From Lactiplantibacillus pingfangensis (GTDB lineage Bacteria; Bacillota; Bacilli; Lactobacillales; Lactobacillaceae), in contig NZ_BJDG01000022.1 of the NCBI RefSeq assembly GCF_005404945.1, positions 1 to 59,159 on the forward strand: a stretch of 59,159 bases of DNA, written 5' to 3'. Positions 3,086 through 49,043 of the stretch are shown in pieces (positions within the stretch are counted from its first letter, which is position 1; the number at the start of each line of letters is the position of its first letter). The translations under genes and the position numbers were made by a program. The notes beneath the pieces are model-generated. The model did not search any database. It worked only from the letters and a program-made list of their open reading frames with translations, and had not been told where the DNA came from.

Positions 3086-3233
3086 GGTTGGGATTGATCA
3101 CATGCGGTCGTGGGGCCGGTCCAAGCCAGGCACGTCTTGAACCTCGACCGGAACCCTTGCAAAAATCGCAAGTGTCCCGGTCTGCCCGTGGTGTAACGTC
3201 GGCAAAAATCGGCCGATGTGATCAGTCCCAACC
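3086..3233 (+). repeat. Intergenic repeat family A, copy A1 (internally deleted)
   Basis: First of five copies (others at 13213, 28818, 45875 and 48872). The outer 18-bp stem is GGTTGGGATTGATCACAT with ATGTGATCAGTCCCAACC, one G-U pair. Inside are the family hairpins AAGCC..CTTG, CTTGC..GCAAG and GTCGGC..GCCGAT. Compared with the other copies it lacks about 23 bases, including the right arm of the second stem (CACGACCG); the junction lies at the repeated CCGATG. The sequence TCACCACGAG..TGACTGTTGCTGAT downstream (3262-3300) matches tails of other copies. It sits between the pucR-type gene and the pyr promoter. Confidence 0.85.
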
Positions 3234-3502
3234 TTCAGTTATTAAGTTTGACTGCAGTATCACTCACCACGAGTTCATTTTAGGAACGACTGTTGCTGAT
3301 ATGGGCCTGTTCACGTTTCTTTTTATGCTTGTAACTGAGTTTAACTGGTGAACAATGACTATCAATCCCAGTTTGACCAGGTTTATAAACAAAATATCAA
3401 TCACGGACTGTCCACATGTAATCAGCGACACCCGGAGGCGACAATGCAGTTGATACGATGGTATAACTATGATCAAAAACGCTGACTTTTACGGATTTTT
3501 CC

Positions 3503-3531
3503 TTGACAGTCATGCGACATTTGGTTACACT
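3503..3531 (+). promoter_or_regulatory. Promoter of the pyr operon
   Basis: TTGACA (3503-3508), 17-bp spacer, TACACT (3526-3531): a perfect -35 box with near-consensus -10. Transcription should begin near 3538, leaving a leader of about 144 bases with the first PyrR attenuator. Confidence 0.8.
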
Positions 3532-3552
3532 TATTTCAATTAAACAGCACCT

Positions 3553-3641
3553 TTAAATTAGTCCTGTGAGGCTAATAAGGGGAACGGTAACTAGGAGTCT
3601 CCCAGCTTTTTCGCAGGAAAAAACGGGGGACTCTTTTTTCC
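3553..3641 (+). promoter_or_regulatory. PyrR-dependent attenuator 1 in front of pyrR
   Basis: The leader holds AGTCCTGTGAGGCT (3560-3573), which resembles the PyrR binding loop of Bacillus and Lactobacillus pyr leaders, then an intrinsic terminator with the stem GAGTCTCCC..GGGGGACTC (3594-3633) and six T. By established knowledge PyrR with UMP binds the loop, releases the terminator and stops transcription when pyrimidines are plentiful. Confidence 0.85.
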
Positions 3642-3681
3642 TCCTCTCGGTGAACATCAAATAGAAATGGAGCTGACTAAC

Positions 3682-4224
3682 ATGGCACGAGAAGTCGTTG
3701 ATGCAATGACGATGCGCCGCGCGTTAACGCGGATTACGTATGAAATTATCGAGCAAAATAAAGGAGTCGGAAACTTGGTCTTTATTGGGATCAAGACAAG
3801 AGGCATTTATTTGGCCCAACGTTTGGCCCAGCGCTTGAAGCAGTTGGAAGGCGTGGACGTGCCAGTCGGGTCGTTAGATATTACGTTGTACCGTGATGAC
3901 CATCATGCGATTGATGTGCAAGGTCAAGCTGAATTGAAAGGTGCAGAGATTCCGGTTGATATTAATGGCAAACACATTATTTTAGTTGATGATGTGCTGT
4001 TTACCGGCCGGACTGTCCGGGCCGCTTTGGATGCCTTAATGGACCAAGGCCGTCCCGCGAAGATTTCTTTGGCTGTGTTAGTTGATCGGGGCCATCGCGA
4101 ATTACCAATTCGCCCTGATTTTGTTGGCAAAAATATTCCAACAGCTTTAGATGAACAAGTCAGTGTTGCTTTAGAAGAACATGACGGCCATGATGGTATC
4201 GCAATTGAAAAATTAAATAATTAA
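3682..4224 (+). CDS. pyrR: Bifunctional pyr operon attenuator protein / uracil phosphoribosyltransferase PyrR
   Basis: RNA-binding regulator of 180 residues that senses UMP/UTP and binds the attenuators at 3553 and 4236. It begins [22 protein letters not shown], and the PRPP-binding motif [19 protein letters not shown] is intact, so a uracil phosphoribosyltransferase side activity is possible. I place the start at ATG 3682, with GGAG about ten bases before it; an in-frame ATG at 3667 lies in front of this binding site and has none of its own. First gene of the pyr operon; pyrB follows after the second attenuator. Length and motifs match the family. Confidence 0.95.
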
Positions 4225-4235
4225 CCATTTAATTG

Positions 4236-4333
4236 TTTCCAGAGAGGAACGAAACGGTTTGGTCATGCGTGACCACTCAATCGGAGTCTAACCTCTTTGC
4301 AAAACAATTTTGCAGGGTGGTTAGACTTTTTTT
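4236..4333 (+). promoter_or_regulatory. PyrR-dependent attenuator 2 between pyrR and pyrB
   Basis: The gap contains TCCAGAGAGGAAC (4238-4250), a close match to the PyrR binding loop, a short hairpin GGTCATGCGTGACC (4261-4274), and an intrinsic terminator GTCTAACC..GGTTAGAC with seven T (4286-4333). It lets PyrR control the biosynthetic genes separately from its own gene. Confidence 0.85.
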
Positions 4334-4358
4334 AAAACCTAAGGAGACGGCAAAAAAG

Positions 4359-46320: not shown

Positions 46321-46321
46321 G

Positions 46322-46349
46322 TTGATTTTTAAAATTAAGCTGTTAAGAT
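46322..46349 (+). promoter_or_regulatory. Promoter of xpkA
   Basis: TTGATT (46322-46327), 16-bp spacer, TAAGAT (46344-46349). The start of transcription would lie near 46356, inside the cre site. Confidence 0.65.
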
Positions 46350-46355
46350 AGTAAT

Positions 46356-46369
46356 TGTAAACGATGTCA
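46356..46369 (+). promoter_or_regulatory. cre site (CcpA) at the xpkA start
   Basis: TGTAAACGATGTCA matches the consensus TGWAANCGNTNWCA at every position. It covers the expected transcription start, where CcpA binding represses. Phosphoketolase repression by glucose through CcpA is established for L. pentosus xpkA. Confidence 0.85.
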
Positions 46370-46417
46370 GTTACAGACAGACAATAATTTAAAAGCAAAT
46401 TAAGGAGTGTTTTGACT

Positions 46418-48784
46418 ATGACTACAGATTACTCATCGCCAGCATATTTGCAAGAAGTTGACAAGTATTGGCGTGCTGCTAATTACTTATCAGTTGGTCA
46501 ACTTTATTTAAAAGCTAATCCATTATTACAACAACCATTAAAAGCAAGTGACGTTAAAGTCCATCCAATCGGCCATTGGGGCACGATTGCTGGTCAAAAC
46601 TTTATTTATGCCCATTTAAACCGGGTGATTAATAAATACAACTTGAAGATGTTCTACGTTGAAGGTCCCGGTCATGGTGGTCAAGTGATGGTTTCAAACT
46701 CGTACTTAGACGGGACTTACACCGATATTTATCCTGAAATTACCCAGGACAAGGAAGGGATGCAGAAGTTATTTAAACAATTCTCATTCCCAGGTGGGGT
46801 GGCTTCACATGCTGCACCTGAAACACCAGGTTCTATCCACGAAGGTGGCGAACTTGGCTATTCAATCTCGCATGGTACCGGTGCAATTTTAGATAATCCT
46901 GATGAAATTGCTGCAGTCGTTGTCGGTGATGGGGAGTCAGAAACTGGCCCATTAGCAACGTCGTGGCAATCAACCAAGTTTATTAACCCAATCAATGACG
47001 GGGCTGTTTTACCAATCTTAAACTTGAACGGGTTTAAGATTTCTAACCCAACAATCTTTGGTCGGACTTCCGATGAAAAGCTTGCGAAATACTTTGAAAG
47101 TATGAATTGGGAACCAATCTTTGTGACTGGCGACGATCCTGAAAAGGTTCATCCATTATTAGCTAAAGCAATGGATGAAGCCATTGAAAAAATCAAGGCT
47201 ATTCAAAAGAATGCTCGTGAAAACAATGATCCTAGTTTGCCAACTTGGCCAATGATTGTCTTCCGCGCACCTAAAGGGTGGACCGGTCCTAAGACTTGGG
47301 ATGGCGATAAGATTGAAGGCTCATTCCGGGCCCATCAAATTCCAATTCCTGTCGATCAATTGGACATGGAACATTCAGATGCATTGGTTGACTGGTTGGA
47401 ATCATACAAGCCAGAAGAATTATTCAATGCTGATGGTAGCTTGAAAGATGATATTAAGGCAATCATTCCGACTGGACAAAGCCGAATGGCCGCCAACCCA
47501 ATTACCAATGGTGGGGTTGATCCTAAGGCGTTGAACCTGCCTAACTTCCGTGACTACGCTGTTGATACGACTAAACGTGGCGCAGATGTTAAGCAAGATA
47601 TGATTGTTTGGTCTGACTATCTTCGCGATGTCATCAAGAAGAACCCAGATAATTTCCGGTTGTTTGGTCCTGATGAAACGATGTCAAACCGGCTCTATGG
47701 CATTTTTGAAGCAACTAACCGTCAATGGTTGGAAGACATTCATCCAGACAGTGATCAATTTGAAGCGCCAGCTGGCCGAGTATTGGATGCTCAGTTATCT
47801 GAACATCAGGCTGAAGGCTGGCTTGAAGGCTACGTTCTAACTGGTCGTCATGGCTTATTTGCAAGTTATGAAGCGTTCTTACGCGTCGTGGATTCAATGT
47901 TGACCCAACATTTCAAGTGGTTACGGAAAGCCAACGAACTCGATTGGCGTCAAAAGTACCCATCATTGAATATTATTGCGGCTTCCACTGTGTTCCAACA
48001 AGACCATAATGGTTACACCCACCAAGATCCTGGTGCGTTGACTCATTTGGCTGAAAAGAAACCAGAATATATTCGTGAATATTTACCAGCTGACGCCAAC
48101 TCCTTGTTAGCAGTCGGTGATGTGATTTTCCGGAGTCAAGAAAAGATTAACTATGTCGTAACGTCGAAGCATCCACGTCAACAATGGTTCAGCATTGAAG
48201 AAGCTAAGCAATTAGTTGACAATGGCTTAGGCATTGTTGATTGGGCAAGTACTGACCAAGGTAGTGAACCTGATATTGTCTTCGCCGCTGCCGGGACGGA
48301 ACCAACATTGGAAGCTTTAGCTGCGATTCAGTTGTTGCATGACAACTTCCCTGACATGAAGATTCGGTTTATTAACGTGGTTGATCTGTTGAAGTTACGC
48401 AGTCCAAAGAAGGACCCACGTGGCTTATCAGATGAAGAATTTGACCATTACTTTACGAAGAACAAGCCAGTCGTCTTTGCCTTCCATGGTTATGAAGACT
48501 TGGTTCGCGACATCTTCTTTGATCGTCACAATCACAATCTGCACGTGCATGGTTACCGTGAAAATGGTGATATTACAACACCATTCGATGTCCGGGTCAT
48601 GAACCAAATGGATCGTTTCGATTTGGCTAAAGCTGCGATTGCGGCGCAACCAGCAATGGAAGATACCGGTGCAGCCTTTGTTCAAGACATGGATAACATG
48701 TTGGCTAAGCACAATGCTTACATTCGTGACGCTGGGACTGACTTGCCAGAAGTTAATGATTGGCAATGGAAAGGCCTGAAATAG
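46418..48784 (+). CDS. xpkA: Xylulose-5-phosphate/fructose-6-phosphate phosphoketolase
   Basis: Splits xylulose 5-phosphate with phosphate into acetyl phosphate and glyceraldehyde 3-phosphate; key enzyme of pentose use. 788 residues, TPP-dependent. [32 protein letters not shown], the TPP-binding [25 protein letters not shown], and the C-terminal [35 protein letters not shown] are present. ATG 46418 follows AAGGAG by ten bases, giving the same length as L. pentosus XpkA. Controlled by a cre and probably by the GntR protein. A terminator and repeat A5 follow. Confidence 0.97.
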
Positions 48785-48810
48785 GCGACATGATTCTTAA
48801 ATGAGCTTAA

Positions 48811-48862
48811 TAAAACTGCGATTGGCTAACAAGCCTGACTTGTTAGTTAATCGCAGTTTTCG
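48811..48862 (+). terminator. Intrinsic terminator of xpkA
   Basis: AAAACTGCGATTGGCTAACAAG pairs with CTTGTTAGTTAATCGCAGTTTT, about 20 bp, with T at the end. Confidence 0.85.
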
Positions 48863-48871
48863 TTGTGAGCC

Positions 48872-49043
48872 GGTTGCTGCTGATAACATGCGGTCGTGGG
48901 ACCGGTCCAAGCCTGAGGAACGTCTTGAACCTCGCTCGGAACCCTTGCAAAAATCGCAAGTGTCCCGAACCGTCCGTGGTGTAAAATCGGCAAGGAACGC
49001 CGATTCAACGCCACCATCACGACCGATGTTATCAACAGCAACC
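48872..49043 (+). repeat. Intergenic repeat family A, copy A5
   Basis: About 172 bp. Outer stem GGTTGCTGCTGATAACAT with ATGTTATCAACAGCAACC, again changed on both arms. Second stem CGGTCGTG with CACGACCG; first hairpin loop is expanded (AAGCCTGAGGAACGTCTT); third hairpin TAAAATCGGC..GCCGATTCAACGCC. Unlike the other copies it lies behind a strong terminator, so read-through from xpkA is limited. A degenerate tail follows (GTGCATGAAACTTTTAGC). Confidence 0.88.

Follow-up and report, generated by a model that had tools for sequence, protein, structure and literature searches.

Covarying multi-helix repeats of Lactobacillaceae genomes as a candidate family of mobile non-coding elements

What is a repeat that keeps its fold and lets its sequence drift, and what keeps its stems paired? 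The question is raised by five intergenic repeats in a 59,159-nucleotide stretch of the Lactiplantibacillus pingfangensis genome (contig NZ_BJDG01000022.1, assembly GCF_005404945.1; hereafter the window, meaning the whole stretch that was analysed). Comparison of the five with further genomes indicates that they are copies and remnants of a family of mobile non-coding elements, of which we found no description in the open-access literature, judged by titles and the beginnings of abstracts. The entire evidence for the family is sequence comparison. The part common to the five copies (A1 to A5), here called core A, is 166–184 nt long and has several helices: an outer stem, P1, then P2 and the hairpins P3, P4 and P5.

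A reading made earlier from the letters of the window only (the sequence-only reading) had located the five copies, quoted their left P1 arms and counted one mismatch or G-U pair per outer stem. All five copies are present at these places, on the forward strand, and the left P1 arms read as quoted. Comparison of the arms by eye gave one non-standard P1 position per copy, of the G-U type in A1 and A4 and of the A-C type in A2, A3 and A5, and the two G-U pairs said to maintain P2 of A4 were found. The body described as common to all copies, with P1, P2 and three inner hairpins, is complete in both P2 and the third hairpin in four of the five; it does not describe A1, in which a deletion fuses the 3' arm of P5 and the right arm of P2 into one segment serving both. 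Core A of A3 has a predicted folding energy of -103.6 kcal/mol, compared with -53.7 (SD 4.2) for 200 dinucleotide shuffles (z -11.8; opposite strand, z -10.4). The window contains five occurrences of a 16-base conserved piece of the core, where 0.58 would be expected (two mismatches permitted).

That structure is kept as sequence drifts, as the sequence-only reading held, was borne out far above controls in much larger alignments. A covariance model of core A was built from 42 A copies and three diverged inverted copies, with the A1 row left out; it superseded a first, overly strict pattern search that gave four matches. For covariation, 108 of 144 unique cores were retained (93% identity filter; truncated L072 and L114_562 removed). 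The ten best covarying column pairs among 16,290 are all predicted pairs and are spread from P1 to P5. With 60 alignments simulated on the 108-core tree as the null, seven pairs pass when all column pairs are considered and 10 of 48 pass within the structure. The 48-pair structure was predicted from that same alignment; its helices recur in the single-copy fold of A3 and when the copies of this genome are aligned. In an alignment of 61 matches that includes other genera and was fitted to the model, 48 of 51 pairs change on both sides, with 627 double-changed cells compared with 174 after shuffling and at most 104 with slid partners. Among nearest neighbours diverging by less than 12%, stems carry 48 double and 130 single changes, compared with 9–15 and 194–229 when partners are slid. 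The fold of core A is strongly supported by these comparisons. Its loops and junctions are conserved too: 58 unpaired columns are invariant across six subfamily majority sequences (these omit one cluster of truncated copies, which is included in the cluster-majority wobble counts given below).

Many copies carry a second domain, D2, to the right of core A, with an outer stem and inner hairpins of its own. A D2 search gave at least 40 matches in this genome, some of them without core A, as in the window at 34258-34580. D2 forms standard pairs at 95.4%, compared with 30–41% with slid partners. The strand opposite to D2 at window positions 34344-34494 matches the core-A model (26 bits, E 1.4e-5), and strong inverted second domains occur in L048 (76.7 bits) and L388 (69.6 bits). 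Antisense strands of core A itself score 29–43 bits, and the case for homology rests on the window match, where A is deleted, and on L048 and L388. Plain local alignment of A with inverted D2 is weak, scoring 26.5 in genome G020 against 20.3 (SD 3.0, maximum 32) for shuffles, and 21.0 against 20.2 in L131. Of 144 A cores, 136 contain a loop motif, AAGCC-N-(A)CGTCTT, the complement of which occurs in 89 of 139 D2 domains. It is well supported by these matches that D2 is a diverged inverted relative of core A. A diverged core of a family B lies inverted 205–311 bp downstream of an A core in L002 (1955-2133), L005 (1988-2166) and L040 (1880-2058), all on the reverse strand, with stems changed in matched pairs.

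Core A is numerous in this genome, with at least 70 cores by covariance-model search and at least 40 long matches by DNA search. In a first search, 12 of 21 Lactiplantibacillus genomes and none of 20 genomes outside the genus had covariance-model matches; the hosts named among the matches listed are Lactiplantibacillus daoliensis, L. nangangensis, L. xiangfangensis and one uncultured metagenome-assembled genome. The restriction to Lactiplantibacillus that this first suggested was ruled out by a search of 151 Lactobacillaceae genomes from 40 genera, in which 18 genomes from eight genera had matches at E 1e-5 or better. For one of the eight (g36) there is just one match, a marginal one (2.8e-6); the remaining seven have matches at 1e-8 as well. 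With a cut-off of E 1e-8 there are as many as 144 copies in G007, 102 in G014, 73 in G151 and 69 in G096, and with a cut-off of E 1e-10 there are 88 in G004 and 71 in G016. The 144 matches of G007 include a young-looking subfamily (L378, L380-L387) that has a single domain of ~190 bp with a P1 of ~30 bp, and no IS4-type ends were found in that genome.

The sequence-only reading had set the repeats apart from ordinary miniature inverted-repeat transposable elements (MITEs), the ends of which keep their sequence. That contrast found no support in G020, in which the core lies inside a MITE-like unit of ~541 bp whose 14-bp inverted repeats, CTAAAGGTTGAAAG / CTTTCAACCTTTAG, do keep their sequence and are flanked by 8-bp target duplications. 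These ends lie ~85 bp to the left and ~285 bp to the right of the core, and P1 is therefore not the end of the element. Related ends are found in part of the window genome's copies. The G020 elements form a recent burst, with 10 other copies of at least 500 aligned bases that are 92–98% like L047. Target duplications were scored in G020 only, the window copies having decayed ends: 13 of 17 scored copies match at 7–8 of the 8 flank bases, as does the insertion sequence (IS) described below, compared with seven 7s and no 8 among 306 mismatched flank pairs (the G020 alignment excludes L152 and L161, and the scoring excludes L059 as well). With one mismatch allowed, both ends were found in four of four G020 copies, four left and two right ends in six chosen copies of G000, one of each in two copies of G014, and one left and no right end in two copies of G018; the L. 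daoliensis copy L131 has one full set.

The same ends flank a 1565-bp IS in G020, with a duplication of GATAGGAG and a 457-aa transposase that belongs to the IS4 family by NCBIfam NF049925 (460 bits, cut-off 250) and in which the motif Y-(2)-R-(3)-E-(6)-K was read by eye. Of the IS4-type elements that have these ends, those in G020 and G008 are intact, and those in G000, G017 and G019 are broken. In PMC2266710, the ISPepr1 subgroup of IS4 is described as 1500–1600 bp long, with ends YT-AA-YTT and a duplication of 7–8 bp. The partner IS resembles it in length, in its ends CTAAAGGTT, in its 8-bp duplication and in the YREK motif, but its seventh end base is G where that source has Y, and the repeats themselves have no transposase. 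By blastn the IS and the G020 repeat have only their ends in common (11–17 bases), with no sizeable similarity in the interior. Four copies in which parts of the core are missing (L158, L159, L160 and L162) have exact ends and 8/8 target bases.

None of the copies matches an Rfam 15 family at gathering scores, and matches at lax thresholds are all far below gathering and none is credible; the only matches in the window at gathering scores are a purine riboswitch and a PyrR site. A blastn search of plasmid and phage collections gave nothing similar to the repeats. With bacterial MITEs mobilised by a resident IS the repeats share sharp ends and short inverted repeats, the duplicated target, a high copy number and a matching full IS in relatives, but here the interior consists of two homologous inverted multi-helix domains with strong covariation, and the domains occur without these ends in other genera. 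REP/BIME sequences have a short palindrome of about 20–40 nt tied to a RAYT transposase. Like REP/BIME, ERIC and RUP palindromes, the present repeats are interspersed, intergenic, palindromic and found in many copies, but they are longer, multi-branched and covary between copies. Membership of REP/BIME was rejected for a core of 166–184 nt with several helices; no search for RAYT was made. A group IIC intron, considered for the terminator-adjacent sites, has no Rfam intron match at the copies (reverse transcriptase was not searched for). GOLLD, ROOL and OLE are likewise large, multi-helix and partly in Lactobacillales, but the copies here lack an Rfam match, are dispersed by the dozen and in some cases have transposon ends. 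PMC2267715 covers one Lactobacillus, L. johnsonii, and the word "plantarum" is absent from its text.

Whether stems also change in matched pairs after insertion can be asked of G004 and G016, which have 19 insertions in common with both flanks alike. In nine of these the copies are mutually nearest; the other ten pairs may be conversion or separate insertions, and the nine are relied on here. The nine pairs contain 12 double changes compared with 3.0 expected (maximum of 9 in 2000 shuffles), 10 of which lead from one Watson-Crick pair to another. All 19 pairs give 54 doubles compared with 13.3 expected, some of which may come from conversion or separate insertions. Judged by these alignments, matched changes arose inside orthologous insertions. 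In the nine pairs the core differs at 69 of 864 paired positions and 60 of 635 unpaired ones (8–9%), less than the 20.5% measured for 4-fold sites in 38 reading frames of the flanks, and family-invariant columns differ at 6–7%, compared with 12–15% for variable ones. D2 divergence in these pairs was not used because indels cause misalignment. The element also occupies the same intergenic space in this genome and a relative in two further comparisons (L103 against window 3082-3239, and L037 against L094), with flanks only 75–78% alike; these sites may be old common insertions or repeated targeting of one site.

The insertions are placed with a bias. Among 225 cores with both neighbours called, the gene on the 5' side is co-oriented with the core in 187. 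Tandem gene pairs split 88 to 22, and 99 cores lie in convergent gaps compared with 16 in divergent ones. Of 18 G020 insertions, 12 have a T run of at least five within 45 bp on the left, and one has such a run within 25 bp on the right.

We propose that the repeats are an old mobile non-coding family of Lactobacillaceae, and we regard the proposal in its entirety as evenly balanced between right and wrong. Its conserved unit consists of two related multi-helix domains in inverted orientation, core A and D2. At least in part of Lactiplantibacillus the two domains lie between terminal repeats matching those of an ISPepr1-like IS of the IS4 family, the transposase of which would move the elements in trans, and insertion duplicates ~8 bp, often just downstream of a terminator-like T run. 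Read-through of the terminator, in the direction from A to D2, might then produce a two-domain structured RNA serving the element, a step to which we commit weakly. The pattern of matched changes suggests that the fold they maintain matters to the element, probably also where the copies sit. Selection is the probable cause of the covariation, and the benefit presumably goes to the element. That RNA is the acting molecule we put a little short of an even chance; the points that favour an RNA role on one strand are the G-U excess of D2 (G-U to A-C cells 214:51) and the co-orientation of the gene on the 5' side in 187 of 225 cores.

Several observations weigh against this proposal. Single changes in core A, with G-U to A-C counts of 43:56, 82:75 and 102:96, have no G-U preference, which does not fit selection on a one-strand RNA, and those in the nine orthologous pairs comprise 21 A-C, 13 G-U and 11 others. 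The low core divergence of the nine pairs is favoured by their selection as mutually nearest; over all 19 pairs the core differs at 11.7% of paired and 13.3% of unpaired sites, compared with 6% in the mostly coding flanks and 12.0% in the left 70 bp. The choice of targets beside terminators may explain the orientation bias, because T runs lie left of 12 of the 18 insertions, and orientation was not accepted as proof that core A is a 3'-UTR (untranslated region) RNA. Neither a sigma-70-like promoter nor a terminator was found in the G020 copy L148, and around A3 there were only chance-level ones. As to IS4-type mobilisation, such ends occur in 0 of 29 copies of other genera and 0 of 17 tested copies of G006, G007, G008 and G017; 7 of 12 host genomes of the genus have no transposase match (G004 has only a 22-residue trace), and G019 has a broken transposase yet no repeats. 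In addition, L159 and L160, which lie at different sites and each have 8/8 target bases, lack P3 and P4 through an identical 68-bp deletion. Unless this deletion occurred twice, at the short repeat that it involves, the form lacking P3 and P4 probably moved, and such movement speaks against the whole fold being needed for transposition. It would be possible, too, that the inverted folded pair is itself the ancient mobile unit, a class of structure-dependent nucleic acid elements that is present in seven or eight genera with as many as 144 copies in a genome and moves by some hairpin- or RNA-dependent route, and that the IS4-type form of some Lactiplantibacillus is one later packaging; we consider this arrangement of events unlikely.

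What maintains the pairing is the point on which the alternatives divide. The sequence-only reading had offered a functional RNA fold or a structure-specific DNA substrate; the conserved fold stands, but on RNA or DNA the wobble statistics disagree between the two domains, and template switching is a third possibility that it had not listed. Hairpins acting as DNA, either bound by protein or extruded in replication or transposition, would make an RNA function unnecessary. The lack of wobble preference among core A singles fits such a role, as does the outer stem, where the 61-match alignment (helix 1) has 270 double-changed cells and 12 G-U cells, and the inverted arrangement of A and D2 makes both strands similar. 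On the other hand D2 favours G-U on one strand, with single changes of 52:23, 107:32 and 139:39 (G-U 2–4 times commoner than A-C); the same holds for P5 (89:24, mostly at two pairs), the sole helix of A that clearly favours G-U, and cluster majorities of A lean the same way (15:4, 9:5 and 12:4 at three cut-offs). We rate folded DNA as the likeliest of the alternatives, though well short of an even chance.

Template switching, in which replication copies one hairpin arm from the other, would give covariation without selection on the folded product, and PMC8794818 reports that it can yield matched changes in one event. Compensated changes are indeed common even between close copies and in situ, and mismatches in A are not wobble-biased; core A differs in this from the rRNA data of that source, where 78.5% of two-step compensations involve G-U pairs. 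Copying from arm to arm would not, however, ensure 58 invariant unpaired columns, the arms of P2 are ~130 nt apart, and invariant columns change in situ about half as often as variable ones, a difference that conversion between copies could also produce. We think it distinctly improbable that template switching accounts for the stems. Least credible of the alternatives, and in our estimate very improbable, is an ordinary dead MITE, its fold a by-product of an old palindromic element and its copies neutral. Many copies lack core A or D2, wholly or in part, ends are often decayed, and the probable movement of the core-deleted form (L159, L160) would suit it, but covariation across several genera, core divergence below the 4-fold rate and conserved loops argue against neutrality.

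The family offers a natural experiment on whether matched stem changes come from selection on RNA, from selection on folded DNA or from arm-to-arm copying. Lactic acid bacteria supply copies by the hundred, some from a recent burst and others old, together with orthologous insertions of known divergence, and wobble signals differ between the two domains of one element. Strong covariation among repeats is normally taken as proof of RNA; the present case warns that it may be partly mutational. The elements occupy intergenic space beside many Lactobacillaceae genes and match no Rfam family.

Further element pieces accompany the five cores in the window (Table 1). Measured between the matches on either side, the unaligned stretch at the A3 site spans 704–739 bp in the window and 99–109 bp in the element-free genomes G001, G002 and G010. 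Eight further relatives that match on both sides have gaps of 218–601 bp there, one of them, G009, with an inverted element at the site.

Table 1. Positions of core A copies and other element pieces in the window.
Feature	Position	Strand	Remarks
Copy A1, core A	3082..3239	+	23-bp internal deletion between P5 3' arm and right P2 arm
Right-tail remnant of A1 element	3249-3311	+	
Copy A2, core A	13209..13389	+	P1-P5 present
Copy A3, core A	28814..28995	+	P1-P5 present; fold z -11.8
Right terminal inverted repeat of A3 element, TTGCAACCTTTAG	29127..29139	+	Reverse complement of one end, CTAAAGGTTGCAA, of the broken IS4-type element found elsewhere in the genome
Probable further element without core A	29206..29356	+	Weak matches (E 0.002 and 0.007); left-end-like CTAAAAGTTGAAA at 29206, 5' piece at 29246-29301, right-tail piece at 29327-29356; right boundary approximate
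Sixth element, core A deleted	34258..34580	-	D2 34336-34496 (-), right inverted repeat 34258-34270; left boundary approximate
Copy A4, core A	45871..46049	+	D2 remnant 46087-46152; right-end-like sequence (2 mismatches) ending 46212
Copy A5, core A	48870..49049	+	Bases preceding CCGG unlike other copies

Copy A1 sits between the purine riboswitch (1093-1191, reverse strand) and the PyrR binding site (3546-3639, forward strand), both at Rfam gathering score, and upstream of pyr-like genes. A PreQ1 riboswitch (L048 863-907, forward strand) lies near an element in G006.

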